Positions 10,166 through 61,542 of a stretch of DNA of 64,000 nucleotides are shown piece after piece. The notes beneath the pieces are model-generated. The model was given only the letters and a program-made list of their open reading frames with translations, had not been told where the DNA came from and searched no databases. The stretch is from Bacteroidales bacterium (GTDB lineage: Bacteria; Bacteroidota; Bacteroidia; Bacteroidales; UBA932): positions 36,660-100,659 of the forward strand of contig JAFXVX010000021.1 in assembly GCA_017534745.1 (NCBI GenBank). Reading direction: 5' to 3'. How positions within the stretch are numbered: position 1 is the first letter of the stretch; every line of letters starts with the position of its first letter. A program made the position numbers and the translations under genes.

Positions 10166-12076
10166 ATGACAAGATTTCCCATATATTGGTTGCTTACCGC
10201 GGCGCTGGTAGTGTCATCCTGTGTTTTCGGACCGAAGGAGGACTATAGCGGTGTCCCCTACACGCCGACGGTTGCAGACCAGGTCGGCCGCATCGACCTT
10301 TCCTCCTATTGGTCCTCTCCGCTCGAATGCTGGGACGAGATGCACGCCCTCTCCACCCTTCAGGGTATAGTCAACCGCACCACGGCGACGCTCTACATAG
10401 ACTATGTGAGCGAGAACGGGAAGAACATCGACAAGTACTGGTGGGACATCTACAGCAAACCGGGAGAATGGTTGTCGGGAGTGAATGTCGAGACGTTCAA
10501 TACGCCCCTGGAAGTGATTACGGCCTATAAGGGTAGGGTAAAGGGCGTTGTCGTCTATGACCCCGCGGTGGCTTCGACGAGCAATGTCGCCTCGTCCGTG
10601 GCCGGCATCGAGGATCTCATCGCAATCCGCTACAACCCGGAGGCGGGCAGTTTGTACTCGAAGGTGGTCAAGGCCGGCCTGCTTCCTGTCAAGGTCTGGC
10701 TCGTGAATGAGGACGGCACCACCAAGTTCACCGGGACTGGTACGATACCGGGAACGGCGCTGCCTTCCACCGGCTCGGCGAAATGTGACGCATATTATTG
10801 GTTCATAGAGAATTACATTAAGACAGGCAAGTGCGACACCAACTGGGCGGGCTATTACATCGACCAGTTTTGGCTGGGATGCCCCCTTAACGTCAAAGGC
10901 GACCTGCATTGCCTGACCAACCATGATTTCTTCGTCAGCAAGAGGGGATTCTTCTTCGATCTCTGCCCCTGGGGAGATTCCGTCAACGATGAGCCCGGAC
11001 AGCCGGCGGGGACCGACCTTCAGGCGATGCGCGATCTGATGATGGCCGCGTACCAAAGCCGTGATCCGGAGTCGATCTGCTATGTCGGCGGCTTCCCTTC
11101 GTGGGCGCACAAATACACCAACGCTCAGGGCGGCAGTCGTGACGCCGTGGCTACCGAATGGGAATTCACCCGCATCCTCAGCCAGTACAACGCCTGCATC
11201 GATGCGGACGCCATCAACAACGGCGCCCTGGCGAATGCCTCCTTCTGGCAGCATTTTCCCCTGAAGGCCGAGTATCCGCAGCCTTGGGTGACCCGTGAGA
11301 GCCTTAAGGAGCGGGGACTCCTGAAGGAAGACGGGACCGTCAATCTCGATGAGGACCGCGAGTATTATATTTTCTACGCAGGAGACTGGGATGCCGCATC
11401 CTGGATTTACCAGCAGGCCTTCAATGTGTGGGACGATCCTCAGAGAGGCTCAATCCCCCTGATGTGGCCGATTGGTCCGGCGCTGAGCCTCCGTTCCCCG
11501 CAGGTGCTGCATTATTTCTACACAACTGCGAGCGCCAACGACTATTTTGTCGCCGCAGACAACGGCGCCGGCTACCTCAATCCCGGCGAACTCCAGGAGC
11601 CGCGTCAGTCCGGGCTCCCTTCGGGCATCAATGCCTGGAAGAAGCACTGCACGAAATTCTACAGGCAGTGGGGGATGACGGTCACGGGCTTCATCATCGA
11701 CGGATTCTCTTCCGGAATGTCCGAGGAGGGATTGGACGCCTATGCGTCGTTCAGTCCCAACGGAATCGTTTTGCAAAGGGCTTCTACCGCAATCACCCTC
11801 CACAAGGGGATGCCTGTACTAAAAGCCAATCCAAATGACCTTAACAAGGATAACAGCGCCGTGACGGAAGCTGCCCGTCTTGCCGAGAATATCCGGCAGG
11901 AGCGTGAGAGCACCGGCCAGCGTTTCCATTGGTGCCGGGTGGTGCTCGCCAGGCCGTCGTGGTACAAAACGGTAGTGGAAACGGTCAGCAGCGACCATCC
12001 CAATTACATCCTGCTTGATGCGCCGTCGTTCTTTGAACTTGTCCGTATCTCCGAGGAAACCCGGGCGGAACAATAA
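10166..12076 (+). CDS. GxGYxYP-type putative glycoside hydrolase, lipoprotein
   Basis: The 636-residue product has a lipoprotein signal (MTRFPIYWLLTAALVVSSCVF). Residues 40-80 (DLSSYWSSPLECWDEMHAL, LQGIVNRTTATLYIDY) match the GxGYxYP N-terminal domain, with the LQGIVNR signature. Around residue 468 the name-giving motif appears as GAGYLNP, so the sixth residue is Asn in place of Tyr. The family is only presumed to be a glycoside hydrolase. It starts three bases after the symporter and ends the LacI operon; a new promoter follows. I am confident of the family, not of any activity. Confidence 0.75.
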   Translation: MTRFPIYWLLTAALVVSSCVFGPKEDYSGVPYTPTVADQVGRIDLSSYWSSPLECWDEMHALSTLQGIVNRTTATLYIDYVSENGKNIDKYWWDIYSKPGEWLSGVNVETFNTPLEVITAYKGRVKGVVVYDPAVASTSNVASSVAGIEDLIAIRYNPEAGSLYSKVVKAGLLPVKVWLVNEDGTTKFTGTGTIPGTALPSTGSAKCDAYYWFIENYIKTGKCDTNWAGYYIDQFWLGCPLNVKGDLHCLTNHDFFVSKRGFFFDLCPWGDSVNDEPGQPAGTDLQAMRDLMMAAYQSRDPESICYVGGFPSWAHKYTNAQGGSRDAVATEWEFTRILSQYNACIDADAINNGALANASFWQHFPLKAEYPQPWVTRESLKERGLLKEDGTVNLDEDREYYIFYAGDWDAASWIYQQAFNVWDDPQRGSIPLMWPIGPALSLRSPQVLHYFYTTASANDYFVAADNGAGYLNPGELQEPRQSGLPSGINAWKKHCTKFYRQWGMTVTGFIIDGFSSGMSEEGLDAYASFSPNGIVLQRASTAITLHKGMPVLKANPNDLNKDNSAVTEAARLAENIRQERESTGQRFHWCRVVLARPSWYKTVVETVSSDHPNYILLDAPSFFELVRISEETRAEQ

Positions 12077-15916: not shown

Positions 15917-16048
15917 ATGAAAAAAGAACTGTATCTGCCACCCGAGACAAGGGTGAAGGAACTGTCCCTGAGAGCTGGGATTCTCGAAATCTCGAACAAT
16001 CAGGCGACAATCGAAGACTATGAATTCGAAGATCTTGACAGAGTTTAA
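15917..16048 (+). CDS. Short ORF A (43 aa), leader-type peptide of the YxxP/acidic-tail design
   Basis: An ATG at 15917 opens 43 codons ending in TAA: MKKELYLPPETRV, then KELSLRAGILEIS, then an acidic tail (IEDYEFEDLD). It occupies most of the 174-base gap between the lyase gene and the lipoprotein start at 16068, with 19 bases left over. I could not assign a family. The design (basic MKK, Tyr-x-Pro-Pro, amphipathic hydrophobic core with Ile-Leu and Ser, acidic end) is shared with the short ORFs at 56134 and 61508, which also directly precede surface lipoprotein genes. There is no signal peptide. Being translated is inference. Confidence 0.55.
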   Translation: MKKELYLPPETRVKELSLRAGILEISNNQATIEDYEFEDLDRV

Positions 16049-16067: not shown

Positions 16068-18194
16068 ATGAAAAAGTATTTCAGCATCGCGATTGCGACC
16101 CTTCTGCTTTGCGGATGTGCAAAGCAGATTGAGGGCCCCGAAAACAACATCCCGGCCCCTAAGACTGACGGCATTACCTTTGTCGCCGGATTCACCAAAG
16201 TGACGACCGCCGCAGGTGTCAACACCTGGGAGGCGGATGACAACATCTCGATATTCAGCGCGGCTAACGGCGCCGATCCCGGTGTTGCCATTGACTCTAA
16301 CCTTGAATATAAGACGGACGCTGCCGGCGCGAGCGCGGCCTTCACCGCCGTGGGCGACCCCGCCCACGCGACCGACAAGTACTTCGCGTATCACCCCTAT
16401 TCACCCGCTTATGCGTCCAAATTGAACGCTGATGCGAATATAGGCTTCTCCGGCGTGGCAGCCAGTGCCCCCGTCACTGACTACCGCTTTATGCCTATTA
16501 TGGTCAACGGTAGCGCCGTTTTCACCTTTGATCCTGCAACCGGAGAGTCCACCAGCAGCTCGACTCCGAAGTATTACTATGCGCAGGCCGACGCCCCTGC
16601 AAATGAAGAGGATCCTGTCGTCCTGAATTTCAAGCCGGTACTTCCCATCCTCGAACTTGACCTCTATGGCCGGGGCACCCTCAAAGAGGTGGACATTTCC
16701 TTCACCGATCCTGCCACGGATGTTTTCAGCGACTACAACTGGCTGACGGCGAAGGGTGTTTTCAACACCTCCACCGGAGTCATGACGATGACCAATCACT
16801 CAAACGCCTATTCTACAATCAAGGTAACGGTCAAAGAAGAGTCCAAGGACTACATCACACTTCTCGGGGAGACCCCTATGAAGATGCAGGTCATCGTAGG
16901 ACCGTTCACCATCCAGAAGGGCCTCACGCTTAAATTCATCGACAAGGACGGCAAGACCTTCTCCAAAGCCATCTGGGCTGACGGAGTCAAGAGCTCGATC
17001 GCCAGCGACGGCTCGATGAAGCACATCCGCCAGGGCATCAATGTGCCTTACATCGCTGCCTCGGCCCCTTCTGTCGCCGAATTCGCCGCCGAAGGCGGAA
17101 CGAGTGAGGCCGTTACAATCAGCACATATTCCGCCTGGAGCGTCAAGAGCAAGCCGGAGTGGATTACCGTCAGTCCTGCCAGCGGCACGGGCAACACTTC
17201 CGTCACCTTTACCGCTGCCGCAAACAGCGGCGACGCCCGCAACGGCGATGTCGTGTTCCAGACCGCCGAAGGCAACGAATGCTCCGTCGCAGTCTCCCAG
17301 GCCAGGGTCGAGATTGTCTCTGCCGGATACTACAGCGTTGACGTGTCGGCTATTACATTTGCCGACTCCTATATCTATGATGTTAAGAATTCAAGCAATA
17401 TCCTGATCGCCCGTATTACCAAGGAGTATCTCGGCGCCACGCAGAACGTTCAGGTCCGGGCGGCATACCCCATTCTTGCCTCCGGCGAGCCGGATTATGC
17501 TCACGGACTTGTCCTTGACGACGGCGGTACCGTGAACGCCTGGACTATGAATCCTACTGCGGTTACGTATGCCGAAGGCGGTCCCGGCACTATTTCGACT
17601 ATCTGGGTAAAGGACGACGGCTCTGATATCCTTACTTCCCAGCCTTCGGGTGATATTTCGGTGGCATCTGTATCTCCGTATGTCCTCCCGTCGCCTTCCG
17701 GACAGAACCATGCCCTCGTCAAGATCGGCAGTCAGATATGGACGGCAGAAGGATACAAGACAACTAAGTTTACGAACGGGAATCCGATTACTCAAATTCA
17801 GCCATCTGATGGCGCACAGGGAACGGCTGCGCTTATAGTCAGCGGTGATATTTATCTGTATAATGCCCATGCAATTTCAAGTACAAGTGGATTTGCTCCG
17901 AACGGATGGGGACTTCCATCAAACGACCAATGGACATCCGATTTGGGTGGTTTCCTTGGCGGAACTTCCACGTATGCCAATATGGCGGTCGCTAAGGCTC
18001 AGTTGTTCAGTAGGACTACCTGGAAACTGAATGGGAAAGCATTAAAAGACCTTGGCTATTACAATACCTGGGGTAATGCGGCCGTAAGCACTTCTAAGTG
18101 GAATATGCTTATGTGCCAAAGCGGTACAGCGCCTAGCGTAAATACAAGTCAGGCTTATACCGCAATGTTCGAGGTACGACTCGTTAAGCAATAA
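16068..18194 (+). CDS. Surface lipoprotein: fimbrillin-like region, BACON domain, FISUMP-like C-terminus
   Basis: Start at ATG 16068 (MKKYFSIAIATLLLCGCAKQ), which gives an ideal lipoprotein signal with Cys at residue 18; the longer frame from 16020 overlaps short ORF A. Residues 25-320 resemble fimbrillin-type surface proteins. About 325-415 is a BACON domain (AAEGGTSEAVTISTYSAWSV, PEWITVSPASGTGNTSVTF). The last ~160 residues contain VKIGSQIWTAEGYKTTKF, a FISUMP-like motif. It probably binds glycan at the cell surface for the adjacent SusC proteins. The final 500 bases look more AT-rich than the rest. The next gene overlaps its stop (TAATG). Confidence 0.75.
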   Translation: MKKYFSIAIATLLLCGCAKQIEGPENNIPAPKTDGITFVAGFTKVTTAAGVNTWEADDNISIFSAANGADPGVAIDSNLEYKTDAAGASAAFTAVGDPAHATDKYFAYHPYSPAYASKLNADANIGFSGVAASAPVTDYRFMPIMVNGSAVFTFDPATGESTSSSTPKYYYAQADAPANEEDPVVLNFKPVLPILELDLYGRGTLKEVDISFTDPATDVFSDYNWLTAKGVFNTSTGVMTMTNHSNAYSTIKVTVKEESKDYITLLGETPMKMQVIVGPFTIQKGLTLKFIDKDGKTFSKAIWADGVKSSIASDGSMKHIRQGINVPYIAASAPSVAEFAAEGGTSEAVTISTYSAWSVKSKPEWITVSPASGTGNTSVTFTAAANSGDARNGDVVFQTAEGNECSVAVSQARVEIVSAGYYSVDVSAITFADSYIYDVKNSSNILIARITKEYLGATQNVQVRAAYPILASGEPDYAHGLVLDDGGTVNAWTMNPTAVTYAEGGPGTISTIWVKDDGSDILTSQPSGDISVASVSPYVLPSPSGQNHALVKIGSQIWTAEGYKTTKFTNGNPITQIQPSDGAQGTAALIVSGDIYLYNAHAISSTSGFAPNGWGLPSNDQWTSDLGGFLGGTSTYANMAVAKAQLFSRTTWKLNGKALKDLGYYNTWGNAAVSTSKWNMLMCQSGTAPSVNTSQAYTAMFEVRLVKQ

Positions 18195-18646
18195 TGCAGT
18201 CGCGTTGGCTTCATGTGGCCGCGGTGGCGGCGATGCTTCTCCCGGGGTGTCTGAATGAGACATTCCGGGAGGGGGAGCCGCGCCTTGAGTTCGACAGGGA
18301 GGAGACATCCGTGCGCGCCAAGGGCGGTGACGGCTTCGTGAGGGACACGTTCTACGTGTCGTCGAACCGGAGCTGGAGCGCTGCTGTCGCGGACGTGGAA
18401 GCCGACTGGCTTTCCGTCGCGACCGGCGGCTTCGAGAATCCCGCCGGGGTGCTCAAGACGGCTCCGCTCGTGGTCGTTTGCAAGGACAATCCGAGTGAGG
18501 AGGAGCGTACTTCCGAAGTGGTGATTTTCGTCTCCGGCCTGCAAAAGACCGTCAGCGTTCGCCAGAGAGGAGTGCGAATGATTGATGAACTCGAAGGAAG
18601 CGGTATAGATCCTTTTGTGTATGAAGACTATGGGCAGATTTATTAA
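18194..18646 (+). CDS. Small BACON-type lipoprotein
   Basis: 150 residues with a lipoprotein signal (WLHVAAVAAMLLPGC). The rest is one BACON/Ig-like domain: RLEFDREETSVRAKGG, VSSNRSWSAAVADVEADWLSV, ending with a strand of the SVRQRG type. BACON domains occur in carbohydrate-binding or mucin-facing surface proteins of Bacteroidota. The start overlaps the upstream stop by one base, and the final 26 bases overlap the start of the short SusC. The last residues (GSGIDPFVYEDYGQIY) are tyrosine- and acid-rich, outside the domain. Confidence 0.72.
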   Translation: MQSRWLHVAAVAAMLLPGCLNETFREGEPRLEFDREETSVRAKGGDGFVRDTFYVSSNRSWSAAVADVEADWLSVATGGFENPAGVLKTAPLVVVCKDNPSEEERTSEVVIFVSGLQKTVSVRQRGVRMIDELEGSGIDPFVYEDYGQIY

Positions 18647-20957
18647 AACTGCGCTTCCGCTTCTTGTGGCAGTGCTGTCTGCCCTGCCTTCAGCGGCCCA
18701 GGAGCCGTTCAATGCCGCGACCCTGCTGCCAGGGAGTACATCGTCCGTGCTGGTCAGTCCCGTGACCGGAAGCGCGGGCGAGGAACTCTCCGTGCTCATC
18801 CGGGGCGGCAGCGGCATCCGCGGCGCTTCGCAGCCCCTTTGGATTGTCGATGGGGTGGAGATAAATCCTTATGTCAACTTCCTCAATATCTATGATATAG
18901 AGGATATTAAGGTTGTCAAAAACCTCTATGAGACAGGGAAGTACGGTAACAGGGGAGCCGACGGGGTCGTCATCGTGACGACCGCAATCGGAAGCGGCGA
19001 AGACAAGTTCAGCATACGGTGGAATTCGGATCTCGGCCTGACCTTCCCGATTAATAAGGTCGCCGGCGCTGCGCCCGGATTCAATCACAACCACTACCTT
19101 TCACTGATCGGGACGACCAGCCGCGCCGAATACGGCGTGTCCGGATGGTTCCGCCAGACGGACGGTGTGGAGCCCCACAACAACGGGCTTGCCGGCGGCG
19201 TCCGCACCCGTTTCGAGATGAGGGCCAACAAGGTCTTGTCATTCGGGATGAACTCCGCCTTTGTGATGGGGCGGAATAATATGGCGGCCTGCGACGAGCC
19301 TTTCGGCAGCGGCAGCCTTACCCTCCTGCAGCGCAATCCGGACTTTTTCCCGGATCAGAGCATCGACGGGTGGAAAAATGACTACGACAACGAGACGCAG
19401 GACAAGCGTTTCGTGAGTGACCTGCTCCTCCAGACCAATATAGGCAAGTTTGTGAAAATCAGGCTCAATTTCGGCTTTGATTTCCGCAATTCGAACAATC
19501 TCCTATGGTACGGGGAGGGTACACCGATCGGTCGCGAGGAGAACGGCCGCTCGACAATTGAAGGCGACACGGACTTCGCCTACAATGCCGACCTGACCTG
19601 CACCTTCAGGCGTTATTTCAAGGAAAAACACAAGGTGAGCATCGACGCCGCCGTTGACGTACGCGGGAAAGACACCAAGCGCGGCTACATGAGCGGCAGC
19701 GACTTCTTCACCCACTCGCTGAGGGCGAGAGGCCTCAACCTTTACAACAGCGATCCGTCGGTCAGGAAGTTCCAGTACACGTACCTCTCGTACGGAGCCC
19801 GCCTCCAGGCCGGCTATGAATACGCCGGGATGGCCGGGGTGAACGCGATGCTCCGCCTGGACCACACTCCGAGGTATGAGAGCCTCCCGCGCCTCTACAA
19901 GAACTTCGACGGCTGGTTCGACGCAGCGAAACTTATTCCCGGAGACGGAAAGATTGTCTCCGCCTTGAAGCTCAGCGCATCTTACGGCGAGGCTGGGAGG
20001 GAGATGAACCTTCCGTATGCCGGCTACGGGGACTTCCTCACGGGAGAATACCCTGCGGTGCCGGACAATCTTCAGATGTTCTACGAAGGGTTCTGGCGCC
20101 TGCGTACCCGCGAGATTACGGCGGGCCTGGAACTCGGTTTCCTCAACGACCGCATCCGCATTGCCGCCTGCTATTTCGACAGGGCGACTGATGACAATTT
20201 CAATTCCTACTGCTTCGGGCAGAAGGATGGATACTACTGGAGAAGAGCCCCGAGGCAGGATCAGTTCGAGCGCAGCGCAAGGACCCTTATGCGCGGCATC
20301 GAGGGCGAAATCAGCGGAGTCATCCTAAAGGGTGAGGGCTACCGTTGGGACGCCTTTGCAGACATTTCCTACAATGTTTCCCAGATAAGTTCCATCGGGG
20401 ACGAGGACCTTCCGGGAGCCGAAATCGGGAGCGGCCTTATAGCCACCGCCAATGCTCTCGGCTATCCCGCGGCTTCGTTCTACGGCCATAGGACTGACGA
20501 AAACGGCGACCCAGTGGATGTCACGGGGGACGGCATCGTCAACCGTTTCGACCGCGAGGTCATCGGTAATCCCCATCCCAGGTTCTATGGGAATTTTGGG
20601 ACATCCTTCCTCTATAAAGGGTTCTCTCTGTCGGTTCTCGCCAGCTGGGCTGCCGGCTTTGAAGTACTGGACCTGAACAAACTGCTCTTCAAAGGCGGCC
20701 CCGATTTCACGGTAACAGACCGCTATGTCGGCAAGGGCGATTACCTTCGACTTTCGAAGGTCCGCGCGGCCTATGACATTCCGCTCAAAAAGCAGACTGT
20801 CGTAAAATCAGTGGCTGTGTCGCTGACTGGCTATGACCTTATTTACTGGAGAGCATTCCCGCGCTGGAATCCGGCAGTTCTTGGCGTTAATTACGACGTC
20901 TGCCCGACTTCGGCCGCGATGCTCCTTGGCGTGTCACTAACTTTTGGGAGGAAATGA
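18621..20957 (+). CDS. Short SusC-like TonB-dependent receptor
   Basis: Start at ATG 18621 or 18630; both give a signal peptide (GRFIKTALPLLVAVLSALPSAAQ). About 779 residues, shorter than usual SusC (950-1100). It has no N-terminal carboxypeptidase-regulatory-like domain and no clear TonB box. The plug is recognisable (SVLIRGGSGIRGASQPLWIVDGVEINP, DIEDIKVVKNLYETGKYG, GADGVVIVTT), as is a 22-strand-type barrel ending in GVSLTFGRK. The loop DVTGDGIVNRFDREVIGNPHPRF is typical of SusC. It overlaps the BACON lipoprotein gene and sits 1 base before a full SusC. It has no SusD of its own, unless it shares the one at 23941. Confidence 0.83.
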   Translation: MKTMGRFIKTALPLLVAVLSALPSAAQEPFNAATLLPGSTSSVLVSPVTGSAGEELSVLIRGGSGIRGASQPLWIVDGVEINPYVNFLNIYDIEDIKVVKNLYETGKYGNRGADGVVIVTTAIGSGEDKFSIRWNSDLGLTFPINKVAGAAPGFNHNHYLSLIGTTSRAEYGVSGWFRQTDGVEPHNNGLAGGVRTRFEMRANKVLSFGMNSAFVMGRNNMAACDEPFGSGSLTLLQRNPDFFPDQSIDGWKNDYDNETQDKRFVSDLLLQTNIGKFVKIRLNFGFDFRNSNNLLWYGEGTPIGREENGRSTIEGDTDFAYNADLTCTFRRYFKEKHKVSIDAAVDVRGKDTKRGYMSGSDFFTHSLRARGLNLYNSDPSVRKFQYTYLSYGARLQAGYEYAGMAGVNAMLRLDHTPRYESLPRLYKNFDGWFDAAKLIPGDGKIVSALKLSASYGEAGREMNLPYAGYGDFLTGEYPAVPDNLQMFYEGFWRLRTREITAGLELGFLNDRIRIAACYFDRATDDNFNSYCFGQKDGYYWRRAPRQDQFERSARTLMRGIEGEISGVILKGEGYRWDAFADISYNVSQISSIGDEDLPGAEIGSGLIATANALGYPAASFYGHRTDENGDPVDVTGDGIVNRFDREVIGNPHPRFYGNFGTSFLYKGFSLSVLASWAAGFEVLDLNKLLFKGGPDFTVTDRYVGKGDYLRLSKVRAAYDIPLKKQTVVKSVAVSLTGYDLIYWRAFPRWNPAVLGVNYDVCPTSAAMLLGVSLTFGRK

Positions 20958-20958
20958 T

Positions 20959-23934
20959 ATGAAAAAGATACTTTTACTCATATCCATTTCCCTCCTCGGC
21001 CTGACGGCGCTTGCCCAGGTGCCCGATTCGACCGTCCTCGCTGAAATCTACGCCGAGAGGCAGGACACCCTCGAGGAGACGGTCGTCGTCGGCTATGGCG
21101 CGATGCGCAAGAGCGACCTGACCGGCGCCGTGACGTCCATCCGCGTGGAAGACGACGAGGCGGCGCGATCGACCTCCCTTGACCAGTTGATGCAGGGCAA
21201 GGCGGCCGGCGTGCAGATTGTCCGCAACGGCGGCGCCCCGGACGGCGGTATTTCCGTCAGGATCAGGGGATTGTCTTCATTTAACGGCAGTTCCGAACCG
21301 CTGTATGTGGTAGATGGCGTGCTGCTCAATACCTCGCAGGGAGGAGAGACACTCCTCTCCCGCGGCGCAGATAATGGCAGCAGCGACGAGGCGATGAACG
21401 GCCTCCTAGGCCTGAGCCCGTCCGATATCCAGAGCATAGAAGTCCTCAAGGACGCTTCCGCGACGGCCATTTACGGCGCCCTCGGCGCCAACGGCGTCGT
21501 GCTCATCACGACCAAGATGGGCCGCAAAGAGCGTCCAACTATCCGGTTCACTGCCGGTGTCGATGTCAGTATGCCTTCAAAGAGGATAGACGTCCTCTCC
21601 TTCGACGAGTATGTGCAATATCTGGAAGACACGGGAAGTACAGGCTATCTCAACGAGATTTATGAAGATCCGGCCAATCACGCCGGGCTCAAGGTGAGGC
21701 CGGTGGATTGGCAGGATGAGGCGATGAGGACAGCCGTGAGCCAGAGGTACAACTTCGCCATCTACGGTAAGCCGAAGAACCTCTCCTATGCCTTCTCCCT
21801 CTCTTTCAACGATATGAGGGGCGTCATCAAGCAGACCGGCGTCAGGCAGTACATCGGCCGCCTGAACCTCGACTGGACCGTCCATCCCAAAGTCAAGATA
21901 GGCACGAGGTTCATTATGGCCCATATCCACTCTGACATGACCCAATCGACGGGCGGCGGACGCATGTCCTCCGCAACGTCCCTGGCGCGGTCGATGCTTT
22001 CCTACAGGCCCTACTTTGCGGACTACGATCTTGACGACAGCCAGATCTACGACGACGGCGACGAAGACGTCAAGTCGAGTCCCTACCGCTGGCTGGACAA
22101 GACCCATTTCTCCAACGACAGGAAGGATTACCGCATCACTCCGAACCTCTACGTCGAGGCCAAACTGGCCAAGTGGGTCACGTTCAAGAGCAGTGCAGGT
22201 CTTGACTACCGCAACTCCGAGAGGCGCAAGTTCAAGTCCTCCGCCATCAACACGACCAGCACAGGATCCTCCGGCGCCATCGGCACCTATGAGTACTTCA
22301 ACTGGAACTGGGACAACATGTTTATGATGAACGGCAAGTGGAAGGGCCACTCCCTTTCCGGGACCGTCGGCACGACGCTCTACAGCCATTTCATCGGCAC
22401 CCAGACTATCGAGGGCTGGAACATCGACCAGTTCAAGGGCGGCCTGGACTGCATCAACTATGCGCCCAATCGCCGCGAGAGCTACACGGAGGCAAAGAGT
22501 ACTACGCTCTCCTTCCTCGCCCGTGGAATCTACAACTACAAGGACCGCTATGTTCTGACGGCGACCTTCCGCGCGGACGGCTCCTCGAAGTTCATCGGCA
22601 AGAACAGGTGGGGATTCTTCCCCTCGTTCGCCTTCGCCTGGCGCATAAGCCAGGAGCCGTGGTTCCGGAGTTCGTGGATATCTTCGATGAAACTCCGCGC
22701 CGGCTGGGGCCGCGTGGGCGACCAGTCCATCGCTGATTACCAGACCAGGAGCACCTACACAATCTCCGCTATTTCGGCCCACGACCCGGGCAACGTGTCG
22801 GAGACTTCGGTCACCGTGACACCGAGCAACCTCGCCAATCCCCACCTCCGCTGGGAGACGACCGAGCAGGTCAACGGCGGTGTCGACCTGAGCCTTTGGA
22901 ACGGCCGCCTCAGCATCACCGCAGACGGCTATATGAAGACCACCTTCGACCTTCTGCAGAGCAAGGAAATCCCCGCCTCGTCGGGTATGACCTCCTACTA
23001 TGTCAATGAAGGAAAGATCCGCAACAGCGGATTCGAGCTCACCGTCGAGGCCGTCCCGGTCAAGACGGCGGACCTCGAGTGGGTCATCGGTGGAAACCTC
23101 ACGCTCAACCGCAACAAGATAGTCTCCGTCAGCAAGACGGCCGACCGTAAATCCATTTGGATCAGCACCGCCGAGCAGAGGGAGGTGGTCTGCTTCGAAG
23201 GCGCCCAGATAGGCAATTCCGCCTACTGCGCGCAGACGGCGAATATCTTTATGGAAGGCTATGAAATGGGCCTCTTCTACGGCTACAAAGTCAAGAGGAT
23301 AGTCCCTGAGGGCGAGACCGGCACCCCGATCAGCAACGGTGGATTGCCGCGCGAGCCCGGTAGCCTCGACTACTACGACCTCAACGGCAACGGCTACATC
23401 GACGAGGGCGACCGTACGATCATCGGAAACCCCAATCCTAAGCTCATCTACGGATTCAACACCTCGCTGCGCTACAAGGGTCTGACTTTCTCGATGGCGT
23501 TCAGCGGCTCCCACGGCAACGACCTGTTCAATTTCAACTCCTCGGTTGAGACTGCGACCAACATCACAAGGCACAACGTCCTCCGCTCCGCCTACTACGA
23601 CGCCTGGAGCCCGGAGAACCCAGGAGCCGCCTATCCTGCGATCAACAGGATAGAGAACAGCGACTTCAAGAAGTTCTCCAGTATGTATGTGGAGGACGGG
23701 TCGTATCTGCGCATTTCGAACATCTCGCTTTCCTACCTGATTTCCCTTCGCAAGAAGGCCATAAGGAACATCACCCTGACTGGTTCGGTTGCGAATGCGT
23801 ACGTCTTTACCAAATACACCGGTTGGGATCCGGACGTCAATACCTACGGGACCAACGTGAAGAAGATGGGTATTGACGGCGGTAGTTATCCTTCCTGCAG
23901 GACGTTCTCCTTCGATATCCGGTTAACATTCTGA
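20959..23934 (+). CDS. SusC/RagA-family TonB-linked outer-membrane transporter
   Basis: Start at ATG 20959, seven bases after a strong GGGAGG ribosome site (20946-20951), with signal peptide MKKILLLISISLLGLTALAQ; 991 residues. The mature N-terminus goes straight to the TonB-box region (DTLEETVVVGYGAMRKSDLTG) without the usual carboxypeptidase-like domain. Plug motifs QLMQGKAAGVQIV, VRIRGLSSFNGSSEPLYVVDG and ATAIYGALGANGVVLITTK are canonical. It ends in a phenylalanine-terminated barrel strand (SFDIRLTF), as needed for BAM insertion. With SusD seven bases downstream it forms the oligosaccharide importer of this locus. Substrate inferred to be a uronate oligosaccharide. Confidence 0.92.
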   Translation: MKKILLLISISLLGLTALAQVPDSTVLAEIYAERQDTLEETVVVGYGAMRKSDLTGAVTSIRVEDDEAARSTSLDQLMQGKAAGVQIVRNGGAPDGGISVRIRGLSSFNGSSEPLYVVDGVLLNTSQGGETLLSRGADNGSSDEAMNGLLGLSPSDIQSIEVLKDASATAIYGALGANGVVLITTKMGRKERPTIRFTAGVDVSMPSKRIDVLSFDEYVQYLEDTGSTGYLNEIYEDPANHAGLKVRPVDWQDEAMRTAVSQRYNFAIYGKPKNLSYAFSLSFNDMRGVIKQTGVRQYIGRLNLDWTVHPKVKIGTRFIMAHIHSDMTQSTGGGRMSSATSLARSMLSYRPYFADYDLDDSQIYDDGDEDVKSSPYRWLDKTHFSNDRKDYRITPNLYVEAKLAKWVTFKSSAGLDYRNSERRKFKSSAINTTSTGSSGAIGTYEYFNWNWDNMFMMNGKWKGHSLSGTVGTTLYSHFIGTQTIEGWNIDQFKGGLDCINYAPNRRESYTEAKSTTLSFLARGIYNYKDRYVLTATFRADGSSKFIGKNRWGFFPSFAFAWRISQEPWFRSSWISSMKLRAGWGRVGDQSIADYQTRSTYTISAISAHDPGNVSETSVTVTPSNLANPHLRWETTEQVNGGVDLSLWNGRLSITADGYMKTTFDLLQSKEIPASSGMTSYYVNEGKIRNSGFELTVEAVPVKTADLEWVIGGNLTLNRNKIVSVSKTADRKSIWISTAEQREVVCFEGAQIGNSAYCAQTANIFMEGYEMGLFYGYKVKRIVPEGETGTPISNGGLPREPGSLDYYDLNGNGYIDEGDRTIIGNPNPKLIYGFNTSLRYKGLTFSMAFSGSHGNDLFNFNSSVETATNITRHNVLRSAYYDAWSPENPGAAYPAINRIENSDFKKFSSMYVEDGSYLRISNISLSYLISLRKKAIRNITLTGSVANAYVFTKYTGWDPDVNTYGTNVKKMGIDGGSYPSCRTFSFDIRLTF

Positions 23935-52970: not shown

Positions 52971-54208
52971 AAAGAATACTATATATCTTTCTCTTCCTCC
53001 TTGCCCTCACGGCCTGCAAGGAGCAGTATATCGCACGGATTACGGATTTGCGCCTGGTGTCGGTCGATCCCAGAAATGGCTATCCCGGAGACCTTGTGAC
53101 TTTGATCGGGTGGAATTTTTCCCCGATCCAGGAGCAGAATGAAGTACTGGTGGATGATGTGCCCGCCATCGTGCTGGAGGCTTCCTCGAGCCGTTTGCAG
53201 ATAGTCCTCCCCGAGCATCGCCCCGGCCCAGGTATGATTACGGTAAAGGGCCCGGCCGGTGAAAGCGGCGGCCTGGAAATCAATTATCTCAAGCGGCCTG
53301 ATCACGAATATATGGCCTCGACCATCGTCGGCCAGCAGGGGCAGCGCAAATGCGTGGACGGTGTTGGGACAGAGGCGTTGACCTATATGCCTACCGGCAT
53401 CAATAAGGCCCCTGACGGAACCCTTTGGTTTACCGACAGGGGCGGCAACAAGCTGCGCAGAATAGCTGCTGACCTTACGGTTACAACCCTTATGGATGCC
53501 CAGATTCCCGGTGCCGCCCTCTGGCAGGGATGTTTTGACGGCAGTGGCAATTACTGGTGCACCGACAAGGCCAACGGGATTCTTTACCGCTATGAGCCGT
53601 CTTCAGGAAGGGCAGTTACGGTAGCGACAGGGATGAATTCTCCGATGAATGTCGTGATGGACGGGGACGGCAATTTCCTCGTGCCGTGCCGGGACGAAAA
53701 AGTAATCTATAAATTCACTCCGGCCGGGCAGAAGAGCGTTTTTGCAGAGGTGGCGGAAGGACCCAGTTTCATCGCTATCGACCCCCACGGGAATGTGATT
53801 TCGGCGACCCATAATGGCTATTGCCTCCTTTCCATTGACCCGACGGGCACGACGCAGACCGTCATAGTCGGTGACGGCGTGAAGGGGAATACCCTGTTCG
53901 ACGGGGTCAACGGAGACCCGCTCACCGCCAAGATTACCTCGTGCCACGGCATCGACTTCGATTCAAAGGGGGTAATGTATATATCCGATGCATCCTTCCA
54001 CGCCATCCGTCAACTCAAGCCGGATGCCTACGGCAACTATGCAAACGGTATTCTGGAGACCGTGATGGGCGGCGTCAAGGGATACACTGACGGGAAAGGA
54101 CTCAACATAAAGTTCAACGAACCGGCCGGCATTCTGGTCTATGATGACAATACGATCTACGTCTGCGACGTACAGAACTGCCTGATCCGTAAAATAACCA
54201 TAAAATGA
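52967..54208 (+). CDS. Lipoprotein with one IPT/TIG domain and NHL-type propeller
   Basis: 413 residues, signal MKRILYIFLFLLALTACKEQ with Cys17. One IPT/TIG domain (residues 30-110: RLVSVDPRNGYPGDLVTLIG, MITVKGPAGESGGLEINYL) is followed by an NHL-like propeller (DGTLWFTDRGGNKLRRIAAD, MNVVMDGDGNFLVPCRDEKV, GIDFDSKGVMYISDASFHAI), ending in IRKITIK. It is a shorter version of the preceding protein and probably a duplication with loss of two IPT units. Both ends overlap neighbouring genes by four bases, implying translational coupling. Confidence 0.82.
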   Translation: MKRILYIFLFLLALTACKEQYIARITDLRLVSVDPRNGYPGDLVTLIGWNFSPIQEQNEVLVDDVPAIVLEASSSRLQIVLPEHRPGPGMITVKGPAGESGGLEINYLKRPDHEYMASTIVGQQGQRKCVDGVGTEALTYMPTGINKAPDGTLWFTDRGGNKLRRIAADLTVTTLMDAQIPGAALWQGCFDGSGNYWCTDKANGILYRYEPSSGRAVTVATGMNSPMNVVMDGDGNFLVPCRDEKVIYKFTPAGQKSVFAEVAEGPSFIAIDPHGNVISATHNGYCLLSIDPTGTTQTVIVGDGVKGNTLFDGVNGDPLTAKITSCHGIDFDSKGVMYISDASFHAIRQLKPDAYGNYANGILETVMGGVKGYTDGKGLNIKFNEPAGILVYDDNTIYVCDVQNCLIRKITIK

Positions 54209-56127
54209 AACGAATACTTCTTATGGCAGCCGTGCTGTTGACGATCTTCGGCTGCACCAAGACGACGCCAGAGGAGCCGGGCACTGACAATCCGGTCGAT
54301 CCTCCCGGCCCCGTCATTCCCGATCCGCCGACTCCTTCATTCACGGTGACCACTCTGTTCGGTACCGCCGGTTTCAGTAACCCTGTTTCCGGAAAGAAAG
54401 AGGGAGGTCCTGACGACGCCGTGCTCGGAGCCGTCCGTGGGATGGGCTGGATCGAGGAGGGTAAGAAAGCCTTCATTTTGGAGCAATCACAGACCATCAG
54501 GCTGTGGGATCTGGAGCAGAAGCATATTTCAATGCCGTACACCTATGGAACAGAGCAGCATGTGCCCTGGCTCGGAATAATGCACGGTGGTAAGGTTTGG
54601 TTTGCTGATAAAGCCAAAGCCGAAATACGTACGTATGACCCGTCCTCCCGGGTTAACCAGACTGAAGCGGCCCTTGCTGAATGGTCCGGCAAGAGCGTGA
54701 TGGATATCGCGTTCAGTAGTGACGGAGACGCTTTTGTCGCCGTCCGCGACCTCAATACCGTATACAAATTCACCGGAGGAGATTTCACCACTGCTCCATC
54801 CTTGTCGATTGATCTGGGGGCCTGGCCGCTCTCGTTGGTCTTTGATGCCGACGGCAACCTGATTGTCTCAACCAATGGGTGCCAGATTATCAAGGTCGAT
54901 CCGGCCACAGGCGCCACGGAGGTGATTGCAGGCGTGAAGGACGCAAAAAACTTTGATGACGGCGTCCCGGGGTCTCCGCTTACCGCCAAATTCACGGCCA
55001 ATATCGCCGATGTGGCCGTCGCACCCAATGGAGATCTGTACATTGCCGATTCCCACCGGATCCGCAGGATTCGGAAAGGATCAGCTGGATACGGGGATGC
55101 TGAGGTAGAGACGGTTGCCGGAAGCATTCAGCAGAAGAATCGCGCGCAGATTGCTAACGGGACCGGTACGGCCGCCTCTTTCAACCTTATCGGCGGACTG
55201 CTGATGTCCGCGGACGGGAAACGGCTGTATATCTCGGACCAGGGCGCCGGGATGATCCGGGAGCTCTGGATCGGCGACGGCGTAATGCCTGTTTCCACTG
55301 AAAAGAAACTTCGCGCCGGAACATACAACATCCGTTTCTATAACGACAGCGACGAGGGAAACCGTCACTGGGATGTTCGCAAGGCGGCAGTGCTTCAACT
55401 GCTGAAGGATTACGCATTCGATGTGATTGGTTTCCAGGAGTCACGCCCCGTTCAGCGGACGTTCCTCAAGGAAAACCTTCCTGCCTACACTTTCAAGGAG
55501 ACCGATGAGGAGCCCAGCCTGGCGTGGAAGACAGAGAAGTTCACCTTGCTGGACGAAGGTGTGTTTTACCTTTCACCGACTCCGGACGTGCCGAGCTCAC
55601 CCGCTCCGGGCTGGGTAGAGACGGATCCGGGCCGCAAGCGCCTTTGCGTGTGGGTCAAACTGCACGATAAGGATGCCGACAAGGATTTCTATTTCCTGAC
55701 AACCCATCTGGAAGTGGCCAGTTCGGGCACGACCATTACAGACGACGAAGCGCTCACCATTCGCGTCAAGTCAGCCGAATTGATTATCGAAAAGGTCCGG
55801 GGGATGATTTCGGACGGCTCTCCTGTTATTCTGACCGGTGATATGAACTCCCCGACGACTGAGTCGACCCACGCCGACTATTTTAAGACATATTTCACCG
55901 ATACCTATTATCGCAGTGCCGAACTTGGAGTCAATCCGAATCCCATTGCTACCTATAACGCCTGGTCTGACACTGACGAACAGGCGAAAAAGTGGTATCA
56001 CCGCTATGATTATCAGTATTATAAAGGGGATTTGGATGTAAGTTGCTATTTGGTGCTTCGCATCAATTACGACGGTGTCCTCCCTTCCGACCACTGGCCG
56101 GTTCTTGTAGATTACATTTATAAATAA
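54205..56127 (+). CDS. NHL-propeller/endonuclease-exonuclease-phosphatase (EEP) fusion lipoprotein
   Basis: 640 residues, signal MKRILLMAAVLLTIFGCTKT with Cys17, then a proline-rich linker (residues 20-45). About 48-360 is an NHL-like propeller related to the two upstream genes (SLVFDADGNLIVSTNGCQII, PNGDLYIADSHRIRRIRKGS). Residues 366-640 are an EEP domain: AGTYNIRFYN, DVIGFQES with the metal-binding Glu, THLEVA, ILTGDMNSPT (GDxN) and SDHWPVLVDYIY (SDH). All catalytic motifs are present. EEP enzymes cleave phosphoesters in nucleic acids, inositol phosphates or sphingomyelin. As a surface lipoprotein behind NAGPA it may cleave phosphodiesters of a glycan (inference). Confidence 0.86.
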   Translation: MKRILLMAAVLLTIFGCTKTTPEEPGTDNPVDPPGPVIPDPPTPSFTVTTLFGTAGFSNPVSGKKEGGPDDAVLGAVRGMGWIEEGKKAFILEQSQTIRLWDLEQKHISMPYTYGTEQHVPWLGIMHGGKVWFADKAKAEIRTYDPSSRVNQTEAALAEWSGKSVMDIAFSSDGDAFVAVRDLNTVYKFTGGDFTTAPSLSIDLGAWPLSLVFDADGNLIVSTNGCQIIKVDPATGATEVIAGVKDAKNFDDGVPGSPLTAKFTANIADVAVAPNGDLYIADSHRIRRIRKGSAGYGDAEVETVAGSIQQKNRAQIANGTGTAASFNLIGGLLMSADGKRLYISDQGAGMIRELWIGDGVMPVSTEKKLRAGTYNIRFYNDSDEGNRHWDVRKAAVLQLLKDYAFDVIGFQESRPVQRTFLKENLPAYTFKETDEEPSLAWKTEKFTLLDEGVFYLSPTPDVPSSPAPGWVETDPGRKRLCVWVKLHDKDADKDFYFLTTHLEVASSGTTITDDEALTIRVKSAELIIEKVRGMISDGSPVILTGDMNSPTTESTHADYFKTYFTDTYYRSAELGVNPNPIATYNAWSDTDEQAKKWYHRYDYQYYKGDLDVSCYLVLRINYDGVLPSDHWPVLVDYIYK

Positions 56128-56133
56128 AAGGAT

Positions 56134-56289
56134 ATGAAAAAAGTTTATTTTTCGCCGGTATTCTCACTCGCAAGAATACACTCGGACGTGAGTTTCTGTG
56201 CGAGCACCAATGTCCCGGGTGTCACTACGGGAAGCCAGGACGGCCTGGAAGGCTGGGATGAAGACCCCGAGGTGGGGGAATGGGAATAA
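56134..56289 (+). CDS. Short ORF B (51 aa), leader-type peptide of the YxxP/acidic-tail design
   Basis: ATG at 56134, seven bases after the EEP gene stop, preceded by AAAGGAT. 51 codons: MKKVYFSPVFSLARI, a middle with Cys, Ser and Gly (SFCASTNVPGVTTGS), then an acidic, tryptophan-containing tail (EGWDEDPEVGEWE). It ends 13 bases before the fimbrillin-like lipoprotein start at 56303, in the gap where that gene's GGAGG site lies. No signal peptide or known family. It matches short ORFs A and C in size, position and design. Confidence 0.6.
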   Translation: MKKVYFSPVFSLARIHSDVSFCASTNVPGVTTGSQDGLEGWDEDPEVGEWE

Positions 56290-56302: not shown

Positions 56303-58123
56303 ATGAAAACAAGAATAATCTTATTTGCAGCTGCATTGCTGACTCTGGTTTTTTCCTGCGCAAAGGAAAACCTCGACAACTCAACAGACACTCTCGGACC
56401 TGAATCCAAGAGCATTAAAACCCTTACCGCTGCCGCTCCGGAGAGCACAAAGACGGCATTTGTGGGCGGCAAATTTATGTGGAAGAAGAACAACAACATC
56501 AACGTTCGCTCCAACAATTCTGACGGTTACACAGTTTTTACGTATACCGGTGATGATACGTCTGGCCCAGCAACATTCGACATCAAGGAAGCCGATGCGG
56601 CTGACATGATTGTAACCGGTCCGAGCAGTTTCGCCGTTTATCCGGCTACCGGTGCCAGGGAAGAGGACGGAAGTCTCAAGATGAACCTCAAGACGGGGTA
56701 TACCTGGTTTGAGGGTAATGTTGAGGCTCCGATGCTGGCTCAGGTGACTGCCGACGGCACGGATCTCCAGTTCAAGCACGTGGGCGGGCTTTTGAAGGTT
56801 ACTTACAAGTATCTTCCCCCGAAGGCGGCCAAACTCATTGTCTGGGCCCCTTGCAGCGAGTCCGGAATGGTCTCTTACAAGATCTGTTCGACGATGCGTG
56901 AAACGATCGGCTGGCGGACGGACCAGGGTGGATTTACGGGTGAAACTCCGTACGTCCAGGCTTATCCGCTGGGCAGCAAATATGAAATCACACAGACGAT
57001 TTCCTCGGCTACCGCTGCGCAGCGTACTTCCGATGATGGCCTGACGGTCTATATCCCGCTTCCCGTCGGTCCCGGCGATGATCACATTTATCCTGAAATC
57101 AAGGTCCGCCTGGCCTTCGCCGACGGCACCACCGTCCCGGGCTCCGAGCGTACAGCCAAAAACGTCAAGATCGAGCGCGCCGTCATTAAGTCAATGCAGC
57201 CGATTTCCCTTACGAAGTACACTACTGAAACCATTGTGACCGGCCTTGCCCGTACACCGCATGGTTTAACCAGGATTGATGATAATAAGTTCGTGGTAAC
57301 CGCAGAGCAATATCACGTGTATTTCCTTGATGTTGTCAACAACACGGCGACACAGTCAGCGACAAATACCGCATCAAAATATCCGCAATATCCTTACGGT
57401 GTATGTTATGCCGGCGGTAATTTGTGGATCGCCAACAAGGTCGGTGCAACCGGAAACTCTGTATATAAGTACGATATGACCACCCAGATCTATTCTATAG
57501 CGGCATCCAATACCGGAATCAACCAGCCGATGCAGATCAAGGAGCATAATGGAAACATCTATGTGCTGGGAAGGGGCGATGGCAGTTCTGCCGGTAAAAT
57601 CTATGTTTATGAAAATGGCTTCCCTGGAGCAGTCAGTGCACAGGTATATGCTGACTTCAGTCAGATAAGTGTCTCTACGGGTTATGCCTGGCCGATGTCA
57701 TTTGATTTTGACACGGACGGATCTATGGTTGTGGCTGTTTCGGCTTCTTCCGGTACACCATCAGAATGCTTCAAACTCTACCGCGTGGCCTCCAAGGGCG
57801 CGACCCCTGTGCCTTTCTTTGGAAGTGGAGTTAAAGCGACCAGTTATGCAGATATGGCAGACGGCTCTTCGGCCAACGCCTCGTTTGCTCCTGATATGTT
57901 GGAACTTGCATTCGATGGTTCGGGCAACCTCTTTATTGCCGACCAGTATTCGGTCCGCGAGATTGTCCGTGGCGCGACCGGACTGGATGACGGAACGCTC
58001 GTGACACTTTGTGAGAGTTCGGTGCTACCCCGTGTCGACGGTTTGGCCTTAGACAGCACCTGCAAACATATGTACTTGTCCAATAAATCGGCGAAGTGTA
58101 TATACAAGGTGACAATTGAGTAG
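56303..58123 (+). CDS. Lipoprotein with fimbrillin-like N-terminus and NHL-type propeller
   Basis: Start at ATG 56303, seven bases after GGAGG (56291-56295); signal MKTRIILFAAALLTLVFSCA with Cys19; 606 residues. Residues 30-300 resemble fimbrillin-type beta proteins (TKTAFVGGKFMWKKNNNINV, LQFKHVGGLLKVTYKYLPPK). The C-terminal ~300 residues form an NHL-like propeller (GLARTPHGLTRIDDNKFVVT, MLELAFDGSGNLFIADQYSV), ending IYKVTIE like its upstream relatives. It is the last gene of the ECF/SusCD locus; a long hairpin follows. Likely a surface glycan- or ligand-binding protein. Confidence 0.78.
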   Translation: MKTRIILFAAALLTLVFSCAKENLDNSTDTLGPESKSIKTLTAAAPESTKTAFVGGKFMWKKNNNINVRSNNSDGYTVFTYTGDDTSGPATFDIKEADAADMIVTGPSSFAVYPATGAREEDGSLKMNLKTGYTWFEGNVEAPMLAQVTADGTDLQFKHVGGLLKVTYKYLPPKAAKLIVWAPCSESGMVSYKICSTMRETIGWRTDQGGFTGETPYVQAYPLGSKYEITQTISSATAAQRTSDDGLTVYIPLPVGPGDDHIYPEIKVRLAFADGTTVPGSERTAKNVKIERAVIKSMQPISLTKYTTETIVTGLARTPHGLTRIDDNKFVVTAEQYHVYFLDVVNNTATQSATNTASKYPQYPYGVCYAGGNLWIANKVGATGNSVYKYDMTTQIYSIAASNTGINQPMQIKEHNGNIYVLGRGDGSSAGKIYVYENGFPGAVSAQVYADFSQISVSTGYAWPMSFDFDTDGSMVVAVSASSGTPSECFKLYRVASKGATPVPFFGSGVKATSYADMADGSSANASFAPDMLELAFDGSGNLFIADQYSVREIVRGATGLDDGTLVTLCESSVLPRVDGLALDSTCKHMYLSNKSAKCIYKVTIE

Positions 58124-59797: not shown

Positions 59798-61300
59798 TTA
59801 CCGTACGATGCAACGTACTGCGGCATGGATTCCCTCGCCTACCTCTTCCGTGCGCAAAGTATAATTCTCTTCGTTGAAGTAGGCGATTGTTGTACCAGTT
59901 TGATCCTGGGGCCAGTATATTCCGGATGGTAAAAACAAGAAACCGGTATCGCATAGGCCAATACGTCCGCCACCACCATGCACGTACGCACGAATCCAAG
60001 TACAACCGTCTCTTAGCGTATCGAACTCATATGTTCTCGGCAGAAGATAAAAAACGGGTAATTGCAGGGCCTCAGGCCATGTGTAATTATCACGGCCGTA
60101 GATTTCCGGGGCAAACCGATTGTAATTACAGGTATACCAGGTACCAAGATCTGTAATCGTTCCATTATCGGCGATGTTTTGAAGCTTGACCGTGATATTT
60201 TCCCCCACCTCTATCCATTTGCCGACGGGAAGCAAACCGTTGTCCTTGTAACGGTTAATATTGTCGGCGTCGGGCAATCTTATGGCATCGTGGCTGGCAA
60301 GCGTTTTGTCCCTCGCATAATAGTCGTAACGCTGGTCACGTATGACGAGGTCGCCGCTGTTACCGGAAGGGCGATTGTATTCATCGCCGGAGTCGTTGTT
60401 GTTCTCGTAGATGGAGTTGGGCTTAATCATGGCGAAATAATAACCGCTTTCAAAATAATTGGCGTCCAGTTTCCCGTAGAAGAGGTAGCCGCTCACGTTG
60501 CCGTCATTATAGTAAAATCCCGGCAAATCGTCCCTGTACATCTTATCGCTGGTCTCGGTGATGGTGCCGTCGTCGCCAATGGAAGAAATATCAACGGAGA
60601 CAACCGCATCTATACCCAATAGGCAATCAACGTATTGATCGGCCCCGTCATCCTTTACGAAGAACTGCACAAAACCGTCGGCAATCTTCATGTCGAAAGC
60701 CCCGGACACGGTATTGTCGGTCACGGTGTAGGGGAGCGTGGCTGTCATGTAGTAGGCGTAGTGCGCCTCGCTGAACTTAAAGGAATGATATCTGCCAAAC
60801 TCATCAGGCTCCCCAGTGGCCGATACGGTGGCATTGCTTCCGTAAGGCAGGTACACCGCCGTCATCATGCCCGTTTCGCCATTCCACAAATCCAGCGCTC
60901 CGGGCTTTGGCTCATCGCCGTCATACTCCATGGAAGTCCATGTCGTACCGTTGTAAGTCATCTTAAGGTGACTCGGAACACTCACGTTCGTGAAGAACAC
61001 GAAGATGGCGTCGCCCTCTTCCCAGTCCTGCTTCCCGGCGCGTGTCATGGCGCGGAAAGGGGCATCGGCAGGCTCGTCGTCGTCCCACGACTGCCACCGC
61101 CATCCGCCACTCTCACTGCCGCGGGTCGTGGCCGCGTCGCCGGGGCGCGTGGCGGTCAGGTTGAACGTGATGGGTGTCACCGGCTCGGTCGGTGTCGGCT
61201 GCTCCGGCTCCGTCGGAGTCAGGGGCACTATGTTGTCCTCTTTGCTGCAAGCAGCCAGCGCAAGGATTGCGCACAGAAGTAATAATGCTTTCGTCTTCAT
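59798..61300 (-). CDS. Surface lipoprotein, fimbrillin-like
   Basis: Start at ATG 61300, eight bases after GGAGG (61313-61309); signal MKTKALLLLCAILALAACSK with Cys18; 500 residues. A Pro/Thr/Glu-rich linker (residues 27-42) is followed by a fimbrillin-like beta region (AIFVFFTNVSVPSHLKMTYN, MMTAVYLPYGSNATVSATGE). The C-terminal part has aromatic loops and FLFLPSGIYWPQDQ, reminiscent of FISUMP-type domains. It probably forms or caps a surface fibre or binds a ligand. The short ORF C ends 19 bases upstream. Not close to the other lipoproteins by eye. Confidence 0.7.
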   Translation of the reverse strand: MKTKALLLLCAILALAACSKEDNIVPLTPTEPEQPTPTEPVTPITFNLTATRPGDAATTRGSESGGWRWQSWDDDEPADAPFRAMTRAGKQDWEEGDAIFVFFTNVSVPSHLKMTYNGTTWTSMEYDGDEPKPGALDLWNGETGMMTAVYLPYGSNATVSATGEPDEFGRYHSFKFSEAHYAYYMTATLPYTVTDNTVSGAFDMKIADGFVQFFVKDDGADQYVDCLLGIDAVVSVDISSIGDDGTITETSDKMYRDDLPGFYYNDGNVSGYLFYGKLDANYFESGYYFAMIKPNSIYENNNDSGDEYNRPSGNSGDLVIRDQRYDYYARDKTLASHDAIRLPDADNINRYKDNGLLPVGKWIEVGENITVKLQNIADNGTITDLGTWYTCNYNRFAPEIYGRDNYTWPEALQLPVFYLLPRTYEFDTLRDGCTWIRAYVHGGGGRIGLCDTGFLFLPSGIYWPQDQTGTTIAYFNEENYTLRTEEVGEGIHAAVRCIVR

Positions 61301-61319: not shown

Positions 61320-61508
61320 TTACCATTCTTGTTCTTCGTTAAATCCGTTGAACGTGGGATCGCCCGTCTGCTGCACCGGGCTGGCCTGTAGCAGCATCGA
61401 GCTGTGCTGCAACTCGACGAAGCGCATCGTGGGCTTCGTGTAATGTCTCCTGTCATTGTTGCAGTCATTTTGGCTTCGTGTAATGTCTCCTGTCATTGTT
61501 GCAGTCAT
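61320..61508 (-). CDS. Short ORF C (62 aa), leader-type peptide of the YxxP/acidic-tail design
   Basis: Minus-strand ATG at 61508 opens 62 codons. The first ~23 are encoded by a tandem duplication (MTATMTGDITRSQ...). The rest is the conserved core: RRHYTKPTMRFVELQHSS, MLLQASPVQQTGDPT, FNGFNEEQEW. The acidic, tryptophan-ending tail mirrors that of short ORF B. It ends 19 bases before the lipoprotein start at 61300, with that gene's GGAGG in the gap. Without the 40-base duplication no ATG would stand in this frame, so the original start may have been lost and replaced. Confidence 0.6.
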   Translation of the reverse strand: MTATMTGDITRSQNDCNNDRRHYTKPTMRFVELQHSSMLLQASPVQQTGDPTFNGFNEEQEW

Positions 61509-61511
61509 TTT
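61432..61511. repeat. Perfect 2 x 40-base tandem duplication
   Basis: Units 61432-61471 and 61472-61511 are identical (beginning GGCTTCGTGTAATGTCTCCT). As 40 is not a multiple of three, the duplication changes the frame across it. It covers the 5' end of short ORF C. Identity of the copies implies a recent event. Confidence 0.95.
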
Positions 61512-61542
61512 GTTATGGGCTTTATAGTTATTACCCGCGTTC

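Follow-up and report, generated by a model that had tools for sequence, protein, structure and literature searches.

Three short open reading frames (ORFs) stand just ahead of lipoprotein genes in the window, by which we mean the whole 64,000-nt stretch of DNA analysed here (C9:36660-100659 of genome G000, 2.29 Mb). These ORFs, termed A, B and C, are with near certainty coding members of a real family, which is under purifying selection at the protein level. They are probably dispersed precursors of an exported and modified peptide that is processed in trans, similar to the precursors of linear polyphosphorylated peptides (LPP).

The small ORFs of the window and their family

The ORFs, their partner genes and a repeat at ORF C are as follows.

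15917-16048, + strand: ORF A, proposed precursor; 43 codons, MKKELYLPPETRVKELSLRAGILEISNNQATIEDYEFEDLDRV; YLPP leader (Tyr is residue 6), hydrophobic stretch to ILEIS, acidic tail
16068-18194, + strand: partner of A; lipoprotein whose N-terminus looks fimbrillin-like by eye, followed by BACON (5.7e-12) and Fib_succ_major (7.9e-14) domains
56134-56289, + strand: ORF B, second proposed precursor; 51 aa; YFSP ... FCAS, acidic tail; Ser at Tyr+19
56303-58123, + strand: partner of B; lipoprotein, its NHL-type matches weak and under the Pfam cut-off
61320-61508, - strand: ORF C, third proposed precursor; 62 aa as read; YTKP ... LLQAS, acidic tail; Ser at Tyr+20
59798-61300, - strand: partner of C; lipoprotein without Pfam matches; in NCBIfam a single weak match, to the Mfa1 fimbria major subunit (E 0.033, well short of the cut-off)
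61432-61512, - strand: perfect 40-bp tandem duplication; the in-frame ATG of ORF C lies inside the first copy

ORF A begins 23 nt past the preceding stop codon, and 19 nt separate its end from the lipoprotein ATG at 16068; its coordinates and its 43 codons are as the sequence-only reading had described them. ORF B starts 6 nt past the previous stop and is separated by 13 nt from the ATG at 56303, and ORF C is located 19 nt ahead of the ATG at 61300. Both A and B are mid-operon. The design proposed to be common to the three was found in all of them, with YLPP, YFSP or YTKP followed by a hydrophobic stretch and an acidic tail. None of the three matched Pfam or NCBIfam up to an E of 10. Since the ATG of ORF C lies in the first copy of the duplication and 40 bp is not a multiple of three, a copy gained or lost would shift the C leader in or out of frame.

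ORF A has neighbours of the kind expected in a polysaccharide utilisation locus, namely GxGYxYP, heparinase-like, BACON, two TonB-plug ORFs and SusD. The TonB receptor plug domain is present in both of two adjacent ORFs, 18615-20957 and 20944-23934, ahead of the SusD-like gene at 23941; these are either two SusC-like genes or one interrupted gene. Just before ORF B, the lipoprotein gene 54205-56127 encodes NHL-type repeats fused to an endonuclease/exonuclease/phosphatase domain.

With ORF A as query, four matches were obtained in its own genome, A included. A nine-row profile gave 24 own-genome matches at E<=10 and a 44-row profile 25 at E<=0.01. In the window plus 20 own-genome stretches picked around earlier matches, 27 of 2916 small ORFs matched the 44-member profile at E<=0.0011, and the next-best E was 0.84; A, B, C and most of the 27 are themselves part of this profile, as is also to be considered for the E of 1.1e-11 of ORF A. 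Thus, the "three-copy set" of the sequence-only reading was a large undercount, and its argument that three placements speak against chance is borne out. Its view that short peptides ahead of surface lipoproteins occur elsewhere in Bacteroidales as well holds for a real family, for which a name was not found: the 44 members gave no NCBIfam match and two single stray Pfam matches, and a literature search, mostly at record level, returned no description recognisable as the small-ORF family of A, B and C. Two near-identical members, L010 and L011 (bases 281-430 of C16 and C15 of G000, respectively), are found with lipoprotein starts at contig ends, and a close relative, L033 (genome G040), is likewise near a contig end, as if a repeated cassette had broken the assemblies.

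Genomes with a member were counted at each taxonomic rank, own genome included. In the genus, 27 of 41 genomes have one (first profile, E<=0.1). With the second profile, which leans toward the own family (f1), the numbers are 49 of 149 in the family (E<=0.001), 13 of 247 in the order and 4 of 198 in the class (both E<=0.01); two of the 13 order genomes, G379 and G479, have single matches that are false by appearance. A profile built mainly from members of another family, f175, matched 13 of 15 f175 genomes at E<=0.001. The metagenome-assembled genome RUG13713 of an uncultured Bacteroidia, in which RUG presumably stands for rumen, contains a locus (L251) in which residues 1-374 of the lipoprotein next to A are matched at 99% identity. 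L251 was considered as an orthologue for a codon test of A and rejected: it is identical over the whole of ORF A and is therefore uninformative on selection.

For 37 close pairs of members dN/dS ranged from 0.00 to 0.62, values that are biased low because the pairs were picked by protein identity. For 55 pairs picked by flanking DNA, pooling gave a pN/pS of 0.54 for the leader part and of 0.39 for the tail (without correction, pairs non-independent). In close pairs the variation of the tail does not exceed that of the leader (pN 0.26 vs 0.33), although across the whole family it does. In two sets of loci, L164/L165 and L127/L161/L166, the downstream DNA is 91-98% identical and the small ORFs are just 38-73% alike, as if partner gene and precursor recombine apart.

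Partner genes and secretion routes

Among the 27 members of the window and its genome, 21 have a lipoprotein start directly downstream by automatic reading, and the remaining six (A, B, L010 and L011 at contig ends, L023 and L084) also precede a lipoprotein. For a weaker own-genome member, L022, the gene that follows encodes an exported protein other than a lipoprotein. Conversely, seven other lipoprotein genes of the window, e.g. GxGYxYP at 10166, are without such a small ORF by automatic reading, and in tandem arrays the later fimbrillin-like genes often do not have one of their own.

The partners of 204 distinct members were then counted (144 from f1, 40 from f175 and 20 from other families). 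In f1, a lipoprotein start lies -20 to +60 nt downstream in 122 of 144 cases as judged by pattern, with L022 among them as a false call; the median stop-to-start gap of the 122 is 12 nt. The other 22 comprise twelve with a fimbrillin-like lipoprotein farther off or missed by the pattern, two at locus ends, the ambiguous L046 and seven exceptions. The f1 exceptions, L022 included, either precede other proteins with export-like N-termini (L022, L042, L121, L130, L194) or have neither a lipoprotein nor an export-like neighbour (L056, L167, L213). As Mfa_like_1 was found in only five of 53 partner lipoproteins searched against Pfam (E<=0.001; LRR_5 in four), the label "fimbrillin-like" is mainly based on an N-terminal pattern seen by eye.

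In f175, 30 of 40 members directly follow a gene whose product has a C-terminus resembling a type IX secretion system (T9SS) sorting domain, by a text pattern with one visible false match (L224) and one visible miss (L214); two precede a lipoprotein. Members from other families precede a lipoprotein in 14 of 20 cases. Of their remaining six, L088, L091, L103 and L104 follow T9SS-like C-termini (three by eye only), L061 has neither kind of partner and L098 is false by appearance. Curated T9SS sorting models gave few matches among 43 upstream proteins (TIGR04183 three, NF033708 two, PF18962 two). The link to T9SS is based on the text pattern, on a profile-profile match (probability 96.9, E 1.9e-10) between 28 f175 C-termini and four from other families, and on the presence of the translocon protein SprA. 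SprA was detected in 9 of 17 genomes tested, namely four f175 genomes, G256, G292, G442, G473 and G210; G447, G080 and each of the six f1 genomes examined were without it. In genomes without SprA the partners are lipoproteins, with L022 in G000 and L213 in G489 as the few exceptions. Both partner kinds occur among the genomes with SprA; G292 has lipoproteins only, G442 both and G210 neither. A leader cannot act in cis when it lies downstream of its target, and it is thus more likely that the product of the small ORF is diffusible rather than cis-acting.

Peptide design and PqqD gene clusters

An ungapped alignment on Tyr-x-x-Pro was possible for 202 of the 204 members, with Y..P kept in 198 of them. 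Numbered from this Tyr, the conserved positions are K-3 (128 members), Y0 (198), P3, V/I/L7, V/L/I10, E13 (116) and I/F/L16. Position 17 is C (96), A (52) or L (30), position 18 is variable and S19 is present in 155 of 202, with a small residue at 17 in 139 of these 155. The resulting [C/A]-x-S is the strongest family motif after YxxP. A Ser is found solely at 20 in 28 members, solely at 18 in four and at none of positions 18-20 in 15. After S19 the information drops to about 0.3-0.8 bits; the tail is net acidic in 200 of 202 members, and 137 have a Trp within the last 12 residues. ORF B matches this design in full (FCAS). In A (ILEIS) and C (LLQAS) the Ser is at 20 instead, and A is without a small residue two before its Ser. 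With their 43, 51 and 62 aa and with the conserved N-terminus and variable C-terminus of the family, A, B and C fall within what is expected of LPP precursors (35-200 aa). No N-terminal signal sequence is apparent by eye in the small ORFs.

The closest known counterpart is the LPP system of Paenibacillus alginolyticus (LppA, LppB, LppS, LppK, LppN, LppD; PMC13381572, Nat Commun 2026). As far as described in the parts of that paper used here, its gene set encodes an SpI protease, a discrete RiPP recognition element (RRE), an HprK-like kinase, an NTP transferase and an MsbA-like exporter. The precursors have the motif YxxPxVLxHQxIxFETxxS and variable C-terminal ends, with YxxP as the RRE-binding motif of the leader. 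LppA is cut before A-Q-S by the signal-peptidase-like protease, assisted by the RRE, and the Ser of this motif (core Ser3) is phosphorylated. The Bacteroidales family shares with LPP short precursors in which the N-terminus is conserved and the C-terminus varies, the five kinds of partner gene (all five near PqqD in five genomes), the YxxP followed by a conserved Ser (at +18 in LPP, at 18-20 here) and a [C/A]-x-S that resembles the A-Q-S core start of LppA. However, the family does not have the full LPP motif, of which it shares only YxxP, the Ser at the end and a few of the hydrophobic positions; the middle (VL, HQ, FET) is mostly missing, and the Ser is mostly at 19 instead of 18. The precursors are mostly scattered beside surface-protein genes, whereas those of LPP lie in the cluster, and the host is Bacteroidales, whereas the discussion of PMC13381572 limits LPP to Bacillota (its section 6 calls the protease cluster predominantly Bacillota). 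The same source, in the parts used, gives the role of LPP as unknown and notes that LPP clusters of Bacilli are often in capsule loci. We refer to the Bacteroidales family as LPP-like rather than as LPP. Modified and exported peptides of the same order are also known in the Bacteroidales RiPPs with double-glycine leaders and C39 peptidase exporters (PMC10352776), which differ in leader and protease; neither "YxxP" nor "S24" occurs in the part of that text consulted.

PqqD, the stand-alone RRE, was found in all six genomes tested, compared to 3 of 14 control genomes. Within the order, 156 of 247 genomes have a PqqD: 11 of the 13 with a member, or 10 of 11 when the two doubtful genomes are excluded, against 145 of 234 without a detected member. 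G400 has a credible member, yet no PqqD at E<=0.001, and in the f1 genomes G361 and G458 both PqqD and a detected member are missing. As PqqD is this common in genomes without a member, its co-occurrence alone is weak evidence.

At 18 of 19 PqqD sites fetched at length, at least one further LPP-type gene lies nearby according to profiles built in this analysis, for which seven of the 18 sites themselves had been used. All five LPP gene types are found near PqqD in G256, G292, G442, G426 and G346, four types in G585, G245, G447, G348, G445 and G326, and fewer in G561, G529, G275, G479 and G397; the PqqD site of G473 (L333) showed no cluster gene with these profiles. Of the two PqqD sites of G000, one has a nucleotidyltransferase and an exporter and the other a nucleotidyltransferase only; no protease or kinase was found within the 19.5-kb stretches around them, and A, B and C are on other contigs. 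The second PqqD and nucleotidyltransferase pair (L294, C10:42500-62000) follows genes that by eye resemble polysaccharide export genes, a setting similar to the capsule loci of many LPP clusters in Bacilli.

Curated models clearly identified PqqD, the nucleotidyltransferase (NTP_transf_5) and the ABC exporter. The cluster protease matches S24 or, below cut-off, archaeal-type signal peptidase, and its Ser, His and Asp are kept in 5 of 5 aligned sequences; the matching LppS residues are required for cutting, according to the part of PMC13381572 used. The cluster kinase gave weak curated matches, with a GxSGxGK[ST] loop in the four sequences aligned.

Four of the 18 clusters contain a family member (L327, L325, L326 and L336; E 2e-4 to 0.075), which is not an unbiased rate since clusters were partly fetched for a visible member: three were fetched for a member already noticed (3 of 42 PqqD loci scanned) and L327 for a shared contig. 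In L327 (G256) the member, KKLYTSPEIEVVEVIEYGFAASEP..., is the first gene of a complete five-gene cluster, 36 nt ahead of the kinase. The same genome has two more members, L088 and L103, each behind a gene whose product has a T9SS-like C-terminus. L325 and L326 are from one genus, and in each the member lies between PqqD and kinase; in L336 it adjoins both.

Proposed pathway and competing explanations

For A, B and C as precursors processed in trans, we propose the following course. The K-rich start, YxxP and hydrophobic strand of the leader would be bound by the stand-alone RRE (PqqD) encoded elsewhere in the genome. The conserved Ser would be phosphorylated by the HprK-like kinase, and the nucleotidyltransferase may add to this Ser. 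The signal-peptidase-like protease would cut near [C/A]-x-S, and the acidic core would be moved from the cytoplasm by the MsbA-like ABC exporter. The small genes are scattered, most of them next to one that encodes a large surface protein, i.e. a fimbrillin-like lipoprotein in hosts without T9SS and often a T9SS cargo in hosts with it. From linkage alone we infer that the exported peptide works with the adjacent surface protein at the envelope, in its assembly, anchoring or decoration. Among the roles offered by the sequence-only reading, the secreted or modified peptide is the best supported; attenuation and translational coupling found no support.

It is conceivable, and in our view unlikely, that the small ORF encodes a cytosolic chaperone or targeting adaptor which is co-made with its large exported neighbour and is itself never cut or exported. 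Such a role would be in keeping with the linkage of members, upstream or downstream, to large exported proteins of two export routes, with the purifying selection on the tail and with the lack of an apparent signal sequence. However, neither the fixed spacing between YxxP and [C/A]-x-S nor the presence of members within clusters of RRE, kinase, protease and exporter genes would be explained.

A leader ORF that acts in cis, by coupling or attenuating the expression of the lipoprotein gene, would agree with the short gaps of the 122 own-family cases. We regard this as improbable: A and B are mid-operon, with starts 23 and 6 nt past the previous stop, the conserved element is the amino acid sequence, and the f175 gene mostly follows its partner. 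RNA folding at the three junctions (six folds) yielded z values of -2.0 to 0.3 and no common structure. An RNA-based attenuator was rejected on the mid-operon position, the folds and the f175 placement.

YxxP is also the classic leader motif of lasso peptides, where it is bound by lasso-type RREs (PMC10368454, PMC12710340, in the parts used), and in the discrete-RRE (B1) type it is read by a PqqD-type RRE. The PqqD proteins weakly match lasso PqqD models, below cut-off. Nevertheless, a lasso precursor with a cyclised instead of a linear core is very improbable, as no macrolactam cyclase or B2 protease was found among ten cluster proteins scanned and a penultimate Thr is not a family feature. 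Finally, chance ORFs in intergenic gaps, for which their short length might speak, are practically dismissed by the selection and linkage tests, the profile gap and the fixed design.

On a wider scale, the precursor reading could tentatively be extended to a genome-wide system of Bacteroidales, in which one machine of RRE, protease, kinase, nucleotidyltransferase and exporter may mature tens of dispersed precursors, mostly encoded next to a large surface protein, and the exported, modified peptide may be a dedicated partner that assembles, anchors or decorates this protein, be it a lipoprotein in hosts without T9SS or a T9SS cargo in hosts with it. We consider this extension possible and not yet probable. 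If true, an LPP-like RiPP pathway would be extended from Bacillota to Bacteroidota, with an unusual layout of many scattered precursors sharing one machine, and RiPP chemistry would be tied to surface-protein display. An abundant class of unannotated small Bacteroidales genes, with 27 in part of one rumen-type genome, thus gains a testable identity.
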